From Intestinimonas butyriciproducens (GTDB lineage: Bacteria > Bacillota > Clostridia > Oscillospirales > Butyricicoccaceae), in assembly GCF_016901775.1 (NCBI RefSeq), contig NZ_JACJKW010000001.1, forward strand, positions 62,001 through 126,000: a stretch of DNA of 64,000 bases, given 5' to 3'. A program made the translations under genes and the position numbers. Below, piece after piece: positions 20,901 through 58,916 of the stretch; the stretch's first letter is position 1, and every line of letters begins with the position of its first letter. The notes beneath the pieces are model-generated. The model searched no databases. It worked only from the letters and a program-made list of their open reading frames with translations, and was not told the origin of the DNA.

Positions 20901-20980
20901 GGTTTCTCCTCCCTTTGTTTTTTGGGCAGTTTTTCTAAAATTCATGGTAGCATCTCCCCGCTCTTTCGTCAAGATGAAAG

Positions 20981-21004
20981 AAGGAGGAGCAGTTGCTCCT
21001 CCTT
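20981..21004. repeat. Hairpin flanking structured element copy A
   Basis: AAGGAGGAGC, loop AGTT, GCTCCTCCTT: a perfect inverted repeat eight bases before the element body. It occupies the position of the duplicated terminator hairpins seen at the other copies, but no second copy is seen on the far side here. Confidence 0.7.
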
Positions 21005-21012
21005 TTCCCATG

Positions 21013-21170
21013 TCGAAAAAGTGGCAAAGCCGCTTTTTCGAGTTTTTGCAAGGGGCTGCGTGCAGCCATTGGGCCACACTTGCCCCTTGAGAAGTGTAAA
21101 AACCGACGCACAGGTCGCCGGTTTTTACAAATTAGTGAGGGGTAGAACGAACAATCCCTTCTAGCCAGAT
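21013..21170 (+). repeat. Structured repeat element, copy A
   Basis: One of four related elements in the window. In order: hairpin P1 at 21013-21041 (TCGAAAAAGTGGC/GCCGCTTTTTCGA); P2 CAAGGGGC pairing with GCCCCTTG; inner P3 GTG-CA-GCC/GGC-CAC; P4 at 21096-21128 (GTAAAAACCG/CGGTTTTTAC with loop ending CACAGGTCG); then a conserved tail GAGGGGTAGAAC. The exact 3' end is uncertain. The 318-base gap 20901-21218 holds only this element, its flanking hairpin and the aldolase's upstream sequence. Here the element is antisense to both neighbouring genes. Confidence 0.85.
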
Positions 21171-21218
21171 AAATTTTTTGCCAGTCCGGAAGAAGACACA
21201 GTTACACTTTCTTTTCTC

Positions 21219-22445: not shown

Positions 22446-23507
22446 TTACATTCCGTATTTGCGCAGGAAGGGAATATGACTCATGATCCATGCTGCAACG
22501 AAGCTGAAAAGGAATACCAAAGCGGTAGCCACCGGCACGGCCGCCAGCGGTGTCCAGGTGACGGCATTCAATCCCAGGGCCACCAGGCGGCTGTTGAAAA
22601 AGGCGTGGACCAGGTACATCCCAAAGGACAACCGGGAAACCTTCAAACAAAAAGCCAGTCCCCATTTTCCCAGACGGGTTCCGTGGCAATGCTCTTTGAA
22701 AAAGAGGAAAAGCCCCACCGACATCATGGCCACATTGGGGGTGAGATAGAGAAACCAGGTCTCATTGGGAGCATTCCATTCCAGGCTGGCCACCACCGTC
22801 ATGCCCCAGGTCCACACCACCCCCAGGATCCCGGCGGCATAGATGAGCTTTTTCACTTTCGGCGTAAAGTCATAGGTCCTGAAGTAATACCCGGCCACAT
22901 AATAGCCGATATATCCCCCCAGCGCCTTCAGGTCCAGCCGGTACACCACGCCGCTGACCACCTGCCCTGCCTGAGTGCTGTTGAACGCAGGCAGAAAAAG
23001 AGTAAAAACAAAATAAAGCAGCAAAAAATACTCCAGATCCCGCCGGCTGGCCCCTTTGATCAAGAGGCGTAGAATGGGAGTGATGAGATACAGGCCCATG
23101 ATCATATAGAGAAACCACAAATGATAATGACCAAAAGCGATGTTGGTGATGATCTGCCCCAGGGAATCAGGCGTACCGGCCCGGCTGTTGAAAAAGGCGG
23201 TATACAGAGCATAGAAGGTGGACCAGATCAAAAAAGCGGCGGCAATGCGGGGCAGATTTTTGCGGAAAATGCTTTGATAGGTCACATTCCGCTGAGGGTC
23301 CAAAAAAAACATACCGCTGAGCATGACAAATACCGGCACACACCAGCGCACCAGGCTGTCAAACCCATTGAGGATCTGCCACTCTGTGCTGCGCACATCC
23401 ATCCCCGGCCAGTTGTTCCCACACACATGAACCACGATCACCGCAACCATGGCCAGAGCCCGCAAAAGGTCGGCATAGAGCAGCCGGCCCTGAGTATTCT
23501 CTTTCAT
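22446..23507 (-). CDS. Acyltransferase-3 family membrane protein
   Basis: 353 residues from the ATG at 23507 (MKENTQGRLLYADLLRALAM). It has about ten membrane segments and the acyltransferase_3 signature at the N-terminus: RLLYADLLRALAMVAVIVVH with the conserved His, then FVMLSGMFFL. Such proteins acetylate surface polysaccharides or cell-wall components; the acceptor is not evident. It is transcribed alone and flanked by divergent and terminator regions. Confidence 0.85.
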   Translation of the reverse strand: MKENTQGRLLYADLLRALAMVAVIVVHVCGNNWPGMDVRSTEWQILNGFDSLVRWCVPVFVMLSGMFFLDPQRNVTYQSIFRKNLPRIAAAFLIWSTFYALYTAFFNSRAGTPDSLGQIITNIAFGHYHLWFLYMIMGLYLITPILRLLIKGASRRDLEYFLLLYFVFTLFLPAFNSTQAGQVVSGVVYRLDLKALGGYIGYYVAGYYFRTYDFTPKVKKLIYAAGILGVVWTWGMTVVASLEWNAPNETWFLYLTPNVAMMSVGLFLFFKEHCHGTRLGKWGLAFCLKVSRLSFGMYLVHAFFNSRLVALGLNAVTWTPLAAVPVATALVFLFSFVAAWIMSHIPFLRKYGM

Positions 23508-31317: not shown

Positions 31318-31329
31318 CAACCAAAACAA

Positions 31330-31349
31330 GGCGTACCTCAGGATGCGCC
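31330..31349. terminator. Hairpin on the 3' side of element copy B (duplicated flank)
   Basis: AAGGCG...CGCCTT hairpin around the CCTCAGG loop region. On the minus strand it is followed by GTTTTG. It is a direct repeat (15 of 20 bases, all differences transitions) of the segment at 31538-31557 on the other side of the element. Confidence 0.6.
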
Positions 31350-31379
31350 TTCACACTGTCAAATAACTCATATTATGGG

Positions 31380-31528
31380 GTCAGGCCTTTTGTCCTGTCC
31401 TTCATCAATCTGCAAAAACCGGCGACCTGTGCGCCGGTTTTTGCACTTCTCAAGGGACAAGTGTGCGCCAAAGCGTGCACGCAGTCCCTTGCAAAAGCTC
31501 AAAAAAGTGGCAAAAGCCACTTTTTTGA
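31380..31528 (-). repeat. Structured repeat element, copy B
   Basis: Minus orientation, sense to the gene at 31566-32219. P1 31499-31528 (TCAAAAAAGTGGC/GCCACTTTTTTGA), P2 CAAGGGA/TCCCTTG, P3 GTG-CA-CGC/GCG-CAC, and P4 31412-31444 (AAAAACCGGCG/CGCCGGTTTTT, loop CACAGGT). The tail beyond P4 is less similar to the other copies. The 248-base gap holds the element and its two flanking hairpins. Confidence 0.85.
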
Positions 31529-31534
31529 CATCCT

Positions 31535-31560
31535 CACGGCGTATTTCAAAATACGCCGTG
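31535..31560. terminator. Hairpin on the 5' side of element copy B (duplicated flank)
   Basis: CACGGCGTATTT and AAATACGCCGTG form a near-perfect palindrome directly downstream of the minus-strand gene ending at 31566. No T run follows in the sense direction. Confidence 0.6.
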
Positions 31561-31565
31561 CTTTT

Positions 31566-32219
31566 TCATACCCCATAGGAGCTTTCTCTCAGCAGATTTC
31601 CCCCTTGATCATAGGCCCGCACTTCTATTTGATAGCGGAGCGTTCTTTGCTGACAGGTCAGATCCTGGGGACTGTTCAGATCGAAGAAAAAGCCCAGCCA
31701 TTCTTCCTCTGTCGGCCTTTCTCCCTGACAAAGAAACAGGCTTCCCATTTTTTCTTCTCCTTCAAAAAAGACCTGTACCGGCTCATCATATCGGGTGTCG
31801 GTGAGCACCCCTTCCACCCGGTATGTGCCCTCCGGCGCCCAGGCAAACAGCAGCAGAGAGCCTTCCAGATTGTCTTCCCACATCACCGGAACCGCCTGGA
31901 GCTCCTGCTCCCGATGATAGCGTACCAGATTGCGGCCGCTCCACCGAAGAAAACCCACTTTCTGGGCCACACACACTTCCAGCAGATCCTTTTTCTCAGC
32001 CAGCACCAGCCGGTCTTTGTCTTTCAGCCCCACAGGCAGCGTATCCAGATAATCCACCTTTTCCACCATGTGGACCTTCTCCTGCCACCGGAGAGCCTGC
32101 CGGGGCGTCAGGGCCGGATAGCCCTGAGACGCCCACCAAAGCCACAGAGCCAGAAGGGCCAGAAGCACATTGCGCAAAGTGCGCAGGGCACGGTGATATA
32201 CTTTAGGAGGTCTTTTCAT
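31566..32219 (-). CDS. Membrane-anchored protein of unknown function
   Basis: 217 residues. One N-terminal membrane span (NVLLALLALWLWWASQGY, about residues 17-34) follows a basic start, and the remainder should be extracytoplasmic. It overlaps the upstream HAAS-type gene by 17 bases, so the two are coupled. Both share a layout (single span, outer beta-rich domain rich in W and Y), which suggests related roles. No family is recognised. Confidence 0.65.
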   Translation of the reverse strand: MKRPPKVYHRALRTLRNVLLALLALWLWWASQGYPALTPRQALRWQEKVHMVEKVDYLDTLPVGLKDKDRLVLAEKKDLLEVCVAQKVGFLRWSGRNLVRYHREQELQAVPVMWEDNLEGSLLLFAWAPEGTYRVEGVLTDTRYDEPVQVFFEGEEKMGSLFLCQGERPTEEEWLGFFFDLNSPQDLTCQQRTLRYQIEVRAYDQGGNLLRESSYGV

Positions 32220-33057
32220 GCTCTGTCACCTCCTCCAGAGGAATGCGAATGCGGAATGTATTCCCTTCTCTTTCATAAACCAGATCCAGCCATTGGTTTT
32301 TGAGAAATTCCTCCCTCTGGCCATAATCCATATACATGGTGAGGCGGCATTCCTGCCAGAAAAACAAAGGGCGGCTGCTGCTTATTTGCAGCAAAGGCTG
32401 GCTGTAATCGGCATCGGGATGCCAGCTGCCTAAATAAACCTGTCCTTCGCTGCCTTCTATGGAAAGATAGGGGCTGAGTTTCGGCACATCCAGATAGAAA
32501 AGAGGGGTATAGCTGCGAAGGGTCACATTCAGCTCCAGAGTCTGCCACACCTCCGGGCCGTAATTGCCCGTATATATATCGGGGTAACGGGGGTTCCAGG
32601 CATCCTGCAAGGTGGCCTCTTCGATCTGAAAGGTATAGGCTCCCAACCGGGCCTTTTCCGAAGGGCCTCCCTGCTTCAGAATCTCCTGCCGGTCTGCATG
32701 GAACATTTCCTCTGGCCAGGGCCGGTAAAACTGATCCCGCAGCTCTTCCATGGGCCACAAGGCAAAAAAGGCCAACACCAGGGAAATGCCCAAAAACCAT
32801 TTGGAAAGAATCCACAGCCACCCCAGCAAGGGAGAATGGGCTTTGTCCAGCAAAATACCGATTTCCTCCGCATCGCCCATGCGCTTTACCGCCTCTTCGG
32901 CAGCCTGGGCTCCTTCCATCCCCTCTTCCTCTTCCAGCAAAGCGGCGCTGTCCTGGAGGTGGGCCAGAAGCTCTTCATATACCCCTGGCCGGTCGGGACG
33001 AAACCGGATTTTTTCGCAGACAGCATTGCAAAACCTTGCAAACACCGGCCTTGCCAT
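32203..33057 (-). CDS. HAAS-domain (permease-prefix-like) membrane protein
   Basis: 284 residues. Residues 1-75 are helical and charged (CEKIRFRPDRPGVYEELLAHL, then AQAAEEAVKRMGDAEEIG), the pattern of the HAAS/permease-prefix domain commonly encoded beside PadR regulators. A membrane span follows near residues 80-103 (GWLWILSKWFLGISLVLAFF), and the C-terminal 170 residues are predicted outside. The gene lies 15 bases after padR and is probably in its autoregulated operon. Function unknown. Confidence 0.72.
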   Translation of the reverse strand: MARPVFARFCNAVCEKIRFRPDRPGVYEELLAHLQDSAALLEEEEGMEGAQAAEEAVKRMGDAEEIGILLDKAHSPLLGWLWILSKWFLGISLVLAFFALWPMEELRDQFYRPWPEEMFHADRQEILKQGGPSEKARLGAYTFQIEEATLQDAWNPRYPDIYTGNYGPEVWQTLELNVTLRSYTPLFYLDVPKLSPYLSIEGSEGQVYLGSWHPDADYSQPLLQISSSRPLFFWQECRLTMYMDYGQREEFLKNQWLDLVYEREGNTFRIRIPLEEVTEHEKTS

Positions 33058-33072
33058 GGTATTCCCTCCCTT

Positions 33073-33429
33073 CTACGCCTTTTCCGGCTGAAGCTGAGGT
33101 GTGCAGGCGGACACCACCTTCTCCACCCCCTGGGAAAATGCCTTCCACTCGGCGGCTTTTTCCCCCAGCAGCCGCTGTCCTTTGGCCGTCAGCCGGTAAT
33201 ATTTCCGCTTCCGGCCCTGAGGGGTCTCTTTTTCATAGCTTTTGATATGTCCCTGCTTTTCCAGGGTGTGCAGCACCGGATACAAGGTGCCTTCTTTCAT
33301 CTGGAACACATTGTCCGACCGCGCAGACAGGGCAGCGATCATCTGATAGCCATACTGATCCTCCTGCTGAAGCAGGGAGAGCACCAGCAGCACCGTGGTG
33401 CCCGAAAGCAGGCTTTTGTCGATTTTCAT
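33073..33429 (-). CDS. PadR-family transcriptional regulator
   Basis: 118 residues from the ATG at 33429 with GGAGGGGAG upstream. PadR winged helix: SLLSGTTVLLVLSLL, DQYGYQMIAAL, MKEGTLYPVLHTLEKQGHI and RKRKYYRLTAKGQ. It heads an operon with the HAAS gene and the gene after it. Its promoter contains two copies of a dyad-containing repeat, suggesting autorepression. Confidence 0.93.
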   Translation of the reverse strand: MKIDKSLLSGTTVLLVLSLLQQEDQYGYQMIAALSARSDNVFQMKEGTLYPVLHTLEKQGHIKSYEKETPQGRKRKYYRLTAKGQRLLGEKAAEWKAFSQGVEKVVSACTPQLQPEKA

Positions 33430-33446
33430 CTTCTCCCCTCCTTCCA

Positions 33447-33507
33447 ATACCTCGAACATCGATGTTTTCTTTCTTTGATTATACCTCGATATTCGATATA
33501 TTGTCAA
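33447..33507 (-). promoter_or_regulatory. padR promoter with two repeated operator-like sites
   Basis: Minus-strand TTGACA (33502-33507), 18-base spacer, TATAAT (33478-33483): a near-consensus promoter. ATACCTCGA followed by TCGAT occurs twice on the plus strand, at 33447 and 33481, each forming a TCGA-NNN-TCGA dyad. One covers the spacer/-10 and one lies about 34 bases downstream, good positions for repression by PadR. Confidence 0.65.
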
Positions 33508-33591
33508 GAGAGTACTCTCTGCACAAAGGAACTTCCGGCAAATTTTTTCGTCTATTTCAGTAAGAAGCTTTTTACCACGGAGGAATGGAAA

Positions 33592-34044
33592 ATGAATCAC
33601 ATTTTTGCCTGGATTCTGGCTCTCTTTCTTCCCCTGTCCGGCGCTCAAAGCCAGGAGAGTGCCGCCCCGGTCAGTGTTTCTCTTCCCGATTGGGGCATCA
33701 CCGTATATGCAGAGGATATCTGCTCCACCGGTCTGACCCTTTCCATCCACCAATCCGGCGGCCAGCCCACCGGCCAGCTGCAATTTGGCAGCGATTATAT
33801 CCTGGAACGGCTGGAAAAAGGCGCATGGCAGCCGGTACCGCCCACAGTCCAGGGTGAGATCGCCTGGGATTCCCTGGCCTATCTGGTAGCTGCGGATGGC
33901 GAATGCCAGCAGGAAGTCCTTTGGGAACCTCTTTACGGCAGCTTATCCTCCGGCACTTACCGAATCCGCAAGAGTTTTCAGGATTTCCGGGACACCGGCG
34001 ATTTTGATACCCAGACTCTGTCACTGGTATTTGAAATTGAGTAA
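33592..34044 (+). CDS. Secreted Ig-like-domain protein
   Basis: 150 residues from the ATG at 33592, after GGAGG. A signal peptide (IFAWILALFLPLSGAQS) precedes one compact beta domain of about 120 residues. The motif order LTLSIHQSGGQPTGQLQFG, DYILERLEKGAWQPV and LSSGTYRIRKSF resembles the bacterial Ig-like (Big_14-type) domain found alone in many Firmicute exported proteins. Role unknown. Structured element copy C follows directly. Confidence 0.75.
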   Translation: MNHIFAWILALFLPLSGAQSQESAAPVSVSLPDWGITVYAEDICSTGLTLSIHQSGGQPTGQLQFGSDYILERLEKGAWQPVPPTVQGEIAWDSLAYLVAADGECQQEVLWEPLYGSLSSGTYRIRKSFQDFRDTGDFDTQTLSLVFEIE

Positions 34045-34072
34045 AAAAAGCACTCCTGCCTGCAGGAGTGCT
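34044..34072 (+). terminator. Hairpin on the 5' side of element copy C (duplicated flank)
   Basis: AAAAAAGCACTCCTG, loop CCTG, CAGGAGTGCT, starting at the stop codon of the upstream gene. It is the same hairpin as at 34259-34292, but the T run has been replaced by GCGCGC. Confidence 0.75.
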
Positions 34073-34079
34073 GCGCGCA

Positions 34080-34258
34080 TCAAAAAAGTGGCTTCTGCCA
34101 CTTTTTTGAGTTTTTGCAGGGGTCTGCATGCACGCCTATGGCGCACACTTTCCCCTTGAGAAGTGCAAAAAGCCACCCGCAGGTCGCGGCTTTTTGCGAA
34201 TCAATAAGGGTAGAACACAGAATCCGCTTCCGCTATATCTGTTTTCCACAGCCTGTGC
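34080..34258 (+). repeat. Structured repeat element, copy C
   Basis: P1 34080-34109 (TCAAAAAAGTGGC/GCCACTTTTTTGA), P2 AGGGG/CCCCT, P3 TG-CA-CGCC/GGCG-CA, and P4 34165-34197 (GCAAAAAGCC/GGCTTTTTGC), where the inner stem is GCC/GGC instead of CCG/CGG in the other copies. The tail AAGGGTAGAAC is followed by GCTATATCTGTTTTCC, similar to copy D. Sense to the gene ending at 34044. Confidence 0.88.
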
Positions 34259-34292
34259 AAAAAAGCACTCCTGTTTACAGGAGTGCTTTTTT
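34259..34292. terminator. Terminator on the 3' side of element copy C (duplicated flank)
   Basis: AAAAAAGCACTCCTG, loop TTTA, CAGGAGTGCTTTTTT: the stem matches the hairpin at 34044-34072 exactly, with an intact T run. It also separates the convergent csoR gene. Confidence 0.9.
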
Positions 34293-34297
34293 GCATA

Positions 34298-34564
34298 TCA
34301 AAACACCGCTTTATCAAAAAGGGCCATCAGTTCATCGATTTTTTGCTGACTATCCTCTCCGGTTTCCAGGGACTGACGGACACAGTGCTGCAAATGGGCC
34401 TGGAGGATCTCCCGGTTCACCCGGTGCAGAATGGCCTGAGTGGCCATAATCTGATTGGAGATATCCATACAATACCGGTTCTCCTCCACCATTTTCAGGA
34501 TGCCATCCAGCTGGCCCCGGGCGGTCTTGAGCAGCCGCTCTACCTTTTGCCTCTCGGCCTGCAT
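34298..34564 (-). CDS. csoR: CsoR-type copper-sensing repressor
   Basis: 88 residues, all-helical CsoR/RcnR family. The copper ligands Cys32, His57 and Cys61 keep the C-x24-H-x3-C spacing of CsoR (ENRYCMD, QAHLQHC). It should release DNA on binding Cu(I). It follows copA with a TGATG stop/start overlap, so the repressor is the last gene of the operon it presumably controls. Confidence 0.92.
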   Translation of the reverse strand: MQAERQKVERLLKTARGQLDGILKMVEENRYCMDISNQIMATQAILHRVNREILQAHLQHCVRQSLETGEDSQQKIDELMALFDKAVF

Positions 34565-55399: not shown

Positions 55400-55981
55400 C
55401 TATTTCAGCAGATAGAACACAAAATCCACCGCCATCACCAGCGCCAGTATGCCTGTCAGCCATGCCAAAAGCCTGTCCGGTATGCGCCGGGCCAGCTTGT
55501 AAAACAGCGGCTGGATCACATAGAGAAACAGCAGTCCGCCCAAGCCAAAACGAATAGAGGGTGACAAGGCGATCCGTCCCTGGAAATTGATTTTATAGTC
55601 CACATAGGTCTGCCAGGGCCAGCTGCCCACGGTGTACTCCATCCAATAGGTAGCCGCCAGCTCAATGGCTGTGGCTACCGTCATACAACCCAAAAAAACC
55701 AAGCCCACTTGCAGCCATCGCCGGGCTCCTTTGACTGGCTTTTGCACATACCGGCCAAAACACAAAAGAAAGACCAAAGCCCCAATACCATAAATGGGCA
55801 AATAAGGCCCAAAAAGGACACCCCGATTGGAAAATCCCCACCGGTAAACCACCACTTCCAGGAAAACTTCATAGAGCCAGCCAATGACGCAATACAGGAA
55901 AAAATACAAGTAGATCTCCTGGAAACGGCGGACCATGGTCTTGCTACCGTAAAATCGGGGGCGTTGCTTCATCCTCCTCAT
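55400..55981 (-). CDS. CmpB-type putative ABC transporter permease (PF06541-like)
   Basis: 193 residues, four or five membrane segments. The family signature is GWLYEVFLEVVVYRWGFSNR followed by GVLFGPYLPIYGIG at residues 34-67. The name comes from a proposed permease role, which is not well proven; no ATPase is adjacent on this transcript. The ATG at 55981 is preceded by AAGGAGGG. Confidence 0.83.
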   Translation of the reverse strand: MRRMKQRPRFYGSKTMVRRFQEIYLYFFLYCVIGWLYEVFLEVVVYRWGFSNRGVLFGPYLPIYGIGALVFLLCFGRYVQKPVKGARRWLQVGLVFLGCMTVATAIELAATYWMEYTVGSWPWQTYVDYKINFQGRIALSPSIRFGLGGLLFLYVIQPLFYKLARRIPDRLLAWLTGILALVMAVDFVFYLLK

Positions 55982-58513: not shown

Positions 58514-58661
58514 TTTTCTCTTCCTTTCTGTTTTGGCGAAAAAAAACAAACAATGTTTTTTGTCTGCCTCACTATATAACCATATTTCCGTTCAAATGTC
58601 CAAGTGATATTTTCAATAGATTCCTTTTTATTCATCGACTTTTACTATCCGGCAAAAGAAA

Positions 58662-58685
58662 ACAGGCGGCCAAAGGCCGCCTGTC
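58662..58685. terminator. Hairpin on the 3' side of element copy D (duplicated flank)
   Basis: ACAGGCGGCC/GGCCGCCTGT palindrome followed on the minus strand by TTTTCTTTT. On that strand it shares 26 identical bases with the hairpin at 58893-58916, including the start of the T run. Confidence 0.88.
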
Positions 58686-58883
58686 AGTCTGTCGATAAAC
58701 CGATATAGCCAGAGGGTAGAAGCTTGCTTTCCCCCTCATCCATTCGCAAAAACCGGCGACCTGTGCGTCGGTTTTTGCACCTCTCAAGGGACAAGTGTGG
58801 CCGATTGACCGCCAGAAGCGGCCAATCGGCTGCATGCAGACCCTTGCAAAAACTCGAAAAAGTGGCTTTCGCCACTTTTTCGA
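58686..58883 (-). repeat. Structured repeat element, copy D
   Basis: Minus orientation, sense to the gene at 58932-60587. P1 58854-58883 (TCGAAAAAGTGGC/GCCACTTTTTCGA), P2 CAAGGG/CCCTTG, an extended P3 at 58800-58830 (GCCGATTG...CAATCGGC with an inner CCGC/GCGG), P4 58746-58778 (GCAAAAACCG/CGGTTTTTGC, loop CACAGGTCG). The tail ends GCTATATCGGTTTATC, matching copy C. The 418-base gap 58514-58931 holds this element, its two hairpins and about 150 bases of A/T-rich sequence upstream of the DUF4418 operon. Confidence 0.88.
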
Positions 58884-58892
58884 CACGCTCAA

Positions 58893-58916
58893 AACAGGCG
58901 GCCAAAGGCCGCCTGT
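58893..58916. terminator. Hairpin on the 5' side of element copy D (duplicated flank)
   Basis: AACAGGCGGCC/GGCCGCCTGTT with TTTT following on the minus strand, placed 15 bases after the stop of the large membrane protein gene. Its twin is at 58662-58685. Confidence 0.88.

Follow-up and report, generated by a model that had tools for sequence, protein, structure and literature searches.

We show here that a family of short elements in the genome of Intestinimonas butyriciproducens duplicates the entire stem-loop of its target upon insertion, and that the length of the resulting flanking repeat equals that of the hairpin. Taken as a whole, the data are best explained by a non-autonomous, MITE-like element that uses intrinsic-terminator hairpins as insertion sites and duplicates them, an interpretation that we regard as probable without considering it settled. 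The 64,000-nucleotide stretch of DNA that was analysed (the window) contains four copies, A to D (Table 1), and the 2.58 Mb genome contains at least 55 curated ones. Copies B and C belong to the same family, with a size of about 190-210 bp, and most of the 55 curated copies of this one genome are 177-222 bp long, non-coding and dispersed. The terminal inverted repeats of the family (TCAGACTGTCGAAAAAC / TGAGCGTGTCGAAAAAG) are about 16 bp long, imperfect and located at fixed ends, and a search with the terminal-repeat pattern gave 84 matches, compared with 14 for a reversed-pattern control. Being short, non-coding and present in many dispersed copies, and having both terminal inverted repeats and a target site duplication, the family agrees with MITEs in these three respects. 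It is present in 35 of 87 Butyricicoccaceae genomes and in 8 of 15 genera.

Table 1. Family copies A to D and their flanking hairpins (positions within the window).
Feature	Position	Strand	Remarks
A, hairpin copy	20980..21007	-	other copy 21189-21216, decayed, 20/28 identical
Element A, same family	~21004-21190	-	
B, left terminator-hairpin copy	31328..31351	+	AAGGCGTACCTCAGGATGCGCCTT; no T-run
Element B	31350..31537	+	covariance-model match G000:C1:93350-93537, E 4.7e-51; fold z -8.2
B, hairpin c, conserved	31412..31444	+	loop GACCTGTGC; covarying stem, near-invariant loop
B, hairpin d	31451..31491	+	CAAGGGAC..GTCCCTTG, inner stem GTGTGC../..GCACGC
B, terminal hairpin e	31499..31528	+	TCAAAAAAGTGGC-AAAA-GCCACTTTTTTGA; bears right terminal inverted repeat
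B, right terminator-hairpin copy	31535..31560	+	CACGGCGTATTTCAAAATACGCCGTG then CTTTTT; terminator-like on + strand
C, hairpin copy, low-coordinate side	34044..34072	+	AAAAAAGCACTCCTGCCTGCAGGAGTGCT; outer A-run kept, no T-run
Element C	34073..34258	-	orientation opposite to B; fold z -5.8
C, hairpin c, conserved	34165..34197	-	
C, terminal hairpin e	34080..34109	-	
C, outer hairpin copy	34259..34292	+	AAAAAAGCACTCCTGTTTACAGGAGTGCTTTTTT; A-run and T-run
D, left hairpin copy	58659..58684	+	AAAACAGGCGGCCAAAGGCCGCCTGT; 26/26 identical to right copy
Element D, long-stem subfamily	58683..58892	+	210 bp; covariance-model E 2.1e-50
D, right hairpin copy	58891..58916	+	

The left hairpin copy of B starts 10 bases past the stop codon of an aldo-keto reductase gene, and the outer hairpin copy of C lies directly downstream of a csoR-like gene (34298-34564, - strand). 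Copies B and C are each located between convergent genes. A codon-usage-based orientation test of the gene pairs around the copies gave 26 tandem, 13 convergent and 8 divergent pairs, and hence no simple rule.

A sequence-only reading of this region had described C as bounded by hairpins that share the same stem, with a T-run on the outer one only. This is indeed the case, and the positions and sequences given for both elements are correct: the two hairpins are identical at 26 of 29 positions, and their local score (21.5) exceeds that of every mismatched pair (maximum 17.5). For B, the same reading had reported 20-base direct repeats (31330-31349 and 31538-31557) with 15 identical positions and only transitions between them. 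We find the same 15 identities, all five differences are transitions, and four of these affect loop-proximal stem positions (CC/GG to TT/AA). As a control we used 2,970 mismatched, between-locus flank pairs derived from 55 copies. Because 15/20 in the best register was reached by 43 of these pairs (1.4%), the B repeats on their own are weak evidence and only suggestive; the C and D pairs are strong evidence. That terminators match within a locus and differ between loci, as had also been claimed, holds for the family at large, since the own flanks exceed the 99th percentile of the mismatched pairs in 40 of the 55 copies, and their maximum in 31. For 39 copies, the right flank that best matches the left one is that of the same copy. 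The test revealed no clear flank repeat for 15 of the 55, one of which (L055) has a repeat where the element boundary had been mis-set. The hairpin pairs differ by 4.1%, compared with a mean of 16% between element copies and their nearest neighbours.

The duplicated segment is normally the whole terminator stem-loop, with a median length of 25 bp and mostly 22-37 bp. Firstly, 32 of 40 repeats fold end to end, compared with 6.7% of equal-length flank pieces. Secondly, the loop sequences are duplicated along with the stems. Thirdly, the A-run is kept on the outer left side only and the T-run on the outer right side only (A content 0.69 outer left and 0.13 inner; T content 0.53 outer right and 0.12 inner). 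Similar results were obtained for two other genomes, G043 and G044, in which all 26 exact terminal repeats adjoin a hairpin with a stem of at least 8, compared with 73 of 600 random positions; the same hairpin recurs 60-360 nt further on for 20 of the 26, and for none with mismatched partners. Duplication of the terminator hairpin is also found in named Agathobaculum genomes. Flank repeats of 50-75 bp that are not simply a hairpin occur at three loci of related elements in another family.

Further support comes from alleles that lack the element. Two genomes of the Agathobaculum/Butyricicoccus faecihominis type that are 98.5% identical show three insertion differences between contigs G043:C10 and G044:C1. 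At each of these sites, a single hairpin of about 29-33 bp in the empty allele corresponds to two in the occupied one, the flanks being otherwise collinear; at the insertion at 55436-55648, a 33-bp sequence is shared without any difference by the two hairpin copies and the empty site. It should be noted that empty alleles could also arise by precise deletion through recombination between the repeats, and the direction of the polymorphism is therefore not proved. In the same-genus relative G001, which holds only fragments or single copies of the element, the loci corresponding to those beside C (csoR) and B (aldo-keto reductase) are element-free and have a single terminator, although this genome is too diverged for a base-level comparison at these loci. 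The proposal in the earlier reading, insertion into a terminator with target duplication, is thus supported by the flank control, the stem-loop folding, the three empty alleles and the G001 loci. It had named element-free orthologous loci as the place to look, where we indeed find one terminator, and two observations that would refute it: empty sites already containing both hairpins, and element-bearing relatives with unrelated flanking hairpins. Neither was encountered.

The target is an intrinsic-terminator hairpin, of which the left copy retains the outer A-run and the right copy the outer T-run; the mechanism beyond insertion plus duplication is inferred. Staggered joining at the two feet of the hairpin seems the likeliest route; gap filling would then copy the hairpin to both sides of the element. 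Structure-directed joining at the 5' feet is drawn as a hypothetical 'pathway b' in PMC5678879. As insertion leaves two copies of the hairpin and adds the A/T-flanked hairpins of the element itself, we infer that the neighbouring genes retain termination and that the event is nearly harmless.

The interior of the element is strongly folded. The stem of hairpin c shows strong covariation and is conserved across two families, and its loop, GAC[AC]TG[CT]GC, is near-invariant across genera and in the second family. This conserved interior is a point against an ordinary MITE, which would not need one. At the Rfam gathering threshold a tRNA was the sole match in the window, and the element matched no known Rfam family; the permissive threshold gave chance-level matches elsewhere, with no group II intron among them. 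A search of viral contigs for hairpin c gave no match. A more far-reaching possibility, which we offer only tentatively, is that we are dealing with a new class of structured mobile elements that has spread through Butyricicoccaceae and through one or more further Oscillospirales families. To move, it would need the conserved folded core (the hairpin with the GAC[AC]TG[CT]GC loop and a second hairpin) as well as an enzyme that belongs to none of the known transposase families, and the duplication would be measured off against the length of the hairpin at the target.

Copying might instead proceed via an RNA or single-stranded intermediate, which we consider unlikely. As in target-primed reverse transcription, a nick at the foot of the hairpin would be the site of reverse transcription of a structured transcript, and a second nick, in the opposite strand, would set the variable repeat length, with hairpins c and d serving as recognition structure. 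The covarying hairpin c with its near-invariant loop, the very high stability of the fold (z -8.2 and -5.8) and a repeat length that varies, apparently to 50-75 bp in another family, would all fit. However, covariation could equally serve single-stranded DNA or protein binding, the terminal inverted repeats are clear and at fixed ends, and the copies showed no gradient of 5' truncation, although no formal measurement was made.

It is just as improbable, in our view, that the element is moved by a hairpin-recognising, IS1182-like transposase of the IS1272 type that is lost or rare in the sampled genomes. IS1272/TnSha1 do target terminator hairpins (PMC4923244, PMC5678879), and the ends (GGGGCTGTGAAAAAAG) of an IS1182-type element from another family of the order loosely resemble GACTGTCGAAAAA. 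On the other hand, IS1272 deletes its target hairpin without any duplication, the IS1182-like element of G041 has ends that differ from those of the family, and the carriers checked have no IS1182/IS4-type transposases: searches detected neither DUF772/DDE_Tnp_1 proteins in G000, G001 and G015 nor DDE_Tnp_1 in G042, G043, G044 and G047. The mobilising enzyme was not found, as no transposase with matching ends was present among the hits examined. No IS with the ends of the element was detected among the examined hits to PF05598, PF01609, PF01797 and PF00665, the only families searched, and the ends of those rve proteins that were inspected are different. The presence of Y1_Tnp does not track the carriers across the family; the element is present without Y1 in G041, G047, G011, G074 and G064, and G042 has a fragment only. 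An autonomous partner with the same ends was also sought, but neither G000 nor those regions of G044 that were sampled yielded a long terminal-repeat pair. An IS3-type transposase inside one G043 copy (L266) was considered as an autonomous version and rejected, as it has its own ends (GGAGGTGCGGAC..AAAAGTTGG); this IS3-type element apparently entered the loop of hairpin c through an insertion of its own.

Very little speaks for the view, already disfavoured, that the element landed beside a terminator and the hairpin was copied later, by recombination or through selection for a second terminator. The lower divergence of the hairpin pairs relative to nearest element copies would also fit conversion between hairpins, but the three element-free alleles have one hairpin in otherwise collinear flanks, the loop sequences were copied as well, and the A-run and T-run are split cleanly between the two copies. 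A reading of the structures not as mobile DNA but as regulatory RNAs of the host or as built-in double terminators is scarcely tenable despite their gene-end location, strong fold and covarying stems, given that the flanking hairpins are locus-specific, that sites occupied in one genome are empty in a near-identical one, that the adjoining genes are unrelated, and that a same-genus relative has only fragments or single copies.

Normally, the transposase dictates a fixed length for the target duplication. Here, it is the target's own secondary structure that sets the length, and what is duplicated is a working genetic signal; therefore, a terminator hairpin is left on both sides of the insertion. 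For annotators this means that a double terminator at the end of a gene in these bacteria is the scar of an insertion. Genomes with dozens of copies each, and sites that are occupied in one cultured gut bacterium but empty in a near-identical one, offer direct access to the mechanism and to the missing enzyme.

Bacterial class C (group IIC) introns also insert at terminator hairpins, but without target duplication, and the element has no group II intron match in Rfam. Insertion sequences of the IS1634/IS1549 type make long, variable target duplications, a feature shared with the element, and have DDE_Tnp_1-type transposases, which were not found in heavy element carriers; to our knowledge, the length of their duplications has not been linked to a hairpin. 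A literature search that did not cover subscription journals and ISfinder returned no description of hairpin duplication by a bacterial element. REP/REPIN sequences associated with RAYT (Y1) transposases (PMC3733652, tagged REPs) are likewise palindromic, extragenic and present in many copies; the element, however, is much longer, has terminal inverted repeats and a target duplication, and is not followed by Y1 transposases. Bacterial MITEs (PMC10969869) are also short, dispersed and intergenic, with terminal inverted repeats and flanking direct repeats. The element differs from them in its variable-length, full-hairpin repeat instead of a fixed short duplication, in a structured interior conserved across genera, and in that no parent IS was identified. 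The nearest precedent is IS1272/TnSha1 of the IS1182 family (PMC4923244, PMC5678879). IS1272/TnSha1 have hairpin targets, many of them terminators, show no preference for primary sequence and act at the hairpin base or stem; they are about 1.9 kb, encode their own transposase, and delete or replace the target hairpin without target duplication. The element acts on the same target structures but duplicates the whole hairpin, without such a transposase in the carriers tested, and thus provides a natural example of the hairpin-duplicating, structure-directed transposition that PMC5678879 draws as a hypothetical pathway.

We show that the element is inserted DNA, that it targets the stem-loop of a terminator, and that this stem-loop is duplicated whole. 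The sequence-only reading had proposed insertion into a terminator with target duplication for elements B and C; the flanks and empty sites described below indicate that this is the rule for the whole family, so that the proposal was right and understated. In our curated set of 55 non-identical copies with flanks from the window's genome, the match between left and right flank lay above the 99th percentile of 2970 mismatched pairs for 40 copies and above the maximum of these pairs for 31. In these copies, as had also been claimed, the flanking repeats are locus-specific. In 32 of the 40 copies the repeat forms a stem-loop over its entire length, versus 6.7% of flank pieces of equal length, and the repeat length (median 25 bp, mostly 22 to 37 bp) tracks the hairpin. 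Furthermore, the bases are 69% A outside the left copy and 53% T outside the right copy, with 12% T and 13% A on the inner sides. This asymmetry, together with the stem-loop repeats, indicates that an original terminator composed of an A-run, a stem-loop and a T-run was split at its two feet, leaving one stem-loop copy on either side of the element.

Comparison of empty and occupied sites supports the same view. The related genomes G043 and G044, which share 98.5% identity over the ~71 kb compared, differ in three insertions; the empty G044 sites contain one stem-loop each and the occupied G043 sites two. At G043:C10:55436-55648, the left copy, the right copy and the empty site share the same 33 bp. 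The two copies at the G043 site 23145-23360 agree with each other at all 31 bp and share two bases that set them apart from the empty site. The third site has, in both genomes, a 29-bp hairpin followed by TCAGACTGTCGAA, with an alignment overlap of 41 bp; TCAGACTGTCGAA was probably left behind by the end of an older element, and its position beside the empty-site hairpin implies that the same terminator was seemingly hit twice. At locus L240, around G044:C1:808792-808832, TCAGACTGTCGAA adjoins the empty-site hairpin, and G043 has it too. Whether each difference arose by gain or by precise loss is not proved. As predicted for orthologous loci lacking the element, the same-genus relative G001 has a single terminator, without any element, both after csoR (beside C in the window) and after the aldo-keto reductase gene (beside B). 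In sampled regions of G044 and G043, a stem of 8 or more lies directly beside every one of the 26 exact terminal repeats, as against 73 of 600 random positions, and for 20 of the 26 the same hairpin recurs 60-360 nt further on, which was never seen with mismatched partners. Loci in named Agathobaculum genomes show the same hairpin-flank pattern.

The sequences and coordinates reported for B and C were all correct on re-checking. The flanks of C are identical at 26 of 29 positions, with the T-run on the outer copy only, and their local score of 21.5 is far above chance (maximum among mismatched pairs, 17.5). Those of B are identical at 15 of 20 positions, all five differences being transitions. 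The B repeat pair alone is not far beyond chance, as 43 of the 2970 mismatched flank pairs (1.4%) also reach 15/20 in their best register; B is credible mainly because the family shows the same behaviour and because four of its five changes are CC/GG to TT/AA, with the stem kept. The B and C cores are inverted relative to each other. Element D, the fourth copy in the window, gives better evidence than B or C.

Window coordinates of the element copies, their flanking repeats and a promoter match
Feature	Position	Strand	Remark
Element A	about 21004-21190		Copy in the window
B, left flank	31330-31349		
B, right flank	31538-31557		
Promoter match	33478-33507	-	Perfect TTGACA-18-TATAAT, upstream of PadR-like regulator gene
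C, left flank	34044-34072		
C, right flank	34259-34292		
Element D	58683-58892		Subfamily with longer middle stem, about 210 bp
D with flanks	58659-58916		Duplicated terminator hairpin perfect over 26 bases

Across the window's genome, the C core has at least 21 matches and the B core at least 40. The full unit is about 187-190 bp long, or about 210 bp in the subfamily with the longer middle stem, and its start TCAGACTGTCGAAAAAC and end CTTTTTCGACACGCTCA form imperfect terminal inverted repeats of ~16 bp; a degenerate pattern of these ends gave 84 matches, versus 14 for the reversed control. The interior is predicted to fold into hairpins c, d and e. Changes on both sides were found in 14 of 38 predicted pairs within this genome, and the folding of B and C is far stronger than that of their shuffled versions (z -8.2 and -5.8, respectively). 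Two copies of this genome, L078 and L074, carry in place of the middle hairpin d a longer GC-rich sequence that differs from it, which makes the middle stem look like a site where insertions are tolerated.

Conservation is much stronger in hairpin c than in the rest of the element. In 26 diverse sequences, 97.8% of the stem cells pair and both partners vary in 11 of 12 pairs, a covariation that no shuffled or slid version comes close to, and the 9-base loop, GAC[AC]TG[CT]GC, is nearly invariant. Because these sequences were picked for having a stem there, the percentage paired is to some extent built in; such selection accounts less readily for the loop and for the range of compensated pairs. 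These features suggest a role of the folded core in movement or recognition.

Of 87 genomes in the same bacterial family, 35 carry the element according to covariance model R1, and these represent 8 of 15 genera. Scanning named genomes with hairpin c revealed relatives in Agathobaculum (A. desmolans, A. butyriciproducens and several Candidatus species), Butyricicoccus faecihominis and related Clostridia; from these names we infer that the family is the Butyricicoccaceae of GTDB. Similar elements are also present in another family of the order and in clostridial MAGs, in which the flank repeats at three loci are 50-75 bp long and no simple hairpins. Such direct repeats, of about 50-75 bp, flank the related elements L209 (at 2353), L216 (at 7433, - strand) and L218 (at 2502) in other Oscillospirales genomes, and some elements of this type stand in tandem arrays; the duplication of the target may be longer there and depend less on structure. 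Hairpin c also matched bins labelled as distant phyla, namely L170 (Rickettsiales MAG), which has an e-like hairpin too and may be mis-binned, and L176 (Chloroflexota MAG), which may be a chance terminator.

Dating the copies by hairpin divergence, as the sequence-only reading had advised, is unsafe. The 40 hairpin pairs differ by 4.1%, 22 being identical, versus an average of 16% between element copies and their nearest neighbours. Either many diverged source copies were recently active, or selection or conversion maintains the likeness of the paired hairpins, and with both possible no date can safely be drawn.

The mobilising enzyme was not found among the DUF772, DDE_Tnp_1, Y1 and rve candidates examined. 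DUF772 is absent from the window's genome and the sampled relatives tallied, four genomes excepted, the heavy carriers searched lack DDE_Tnp_1, and the occurrence of Y1 transposases does not track the element. The rve transposases examined have ends that differ from those of the element. The ends GGGGCTGTGAAAAAAG of an IS1182-type IS from another family of the order loosely resemble those of the element. No larger copy with an internal gene was seen, except one interrupted by an unrelated IS3-type element. In this copy (L266, G043:C12, IS3-type gene around 195029), the only one seen with a transposase gene, the IS3-type element lies within the hairpin c loop; it looks like an independent insertion because its own ends differ.

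With respect to how the element moves, we infer that a transposase would join the 3' ends of the element to the 5' feet of the extruded hairpin, and that repair would then fill in the hairpin on both sides. Such a route corresponds to the hypothetical alternative "pathway b" drawn for IS1272 in PMC5678879. The duplication would leave a hairpin for both neighbouring genes, to which the element would add its own hairpins with A/T tracts; the right hairpin of B and two hairpins of C score as terminator-like, by a consensus scan only. IS1272 (PMC5678879) and TnSha1 (PMC4923244) also target terminator hairpins but remove them. In open-access full text, we found no account of a bacterial element that duplicates hairpins. 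Given that the hairpin is duplicated here and deleted by IS1272, and that an IS1272-type transposase is absent from the carriers searched, we do not file the element as IS1272-like. We file it as MITE-like, since the defining features are met except for a known parent, although an ordinary MITE would not need a folded core such as the conserved hairpin c.
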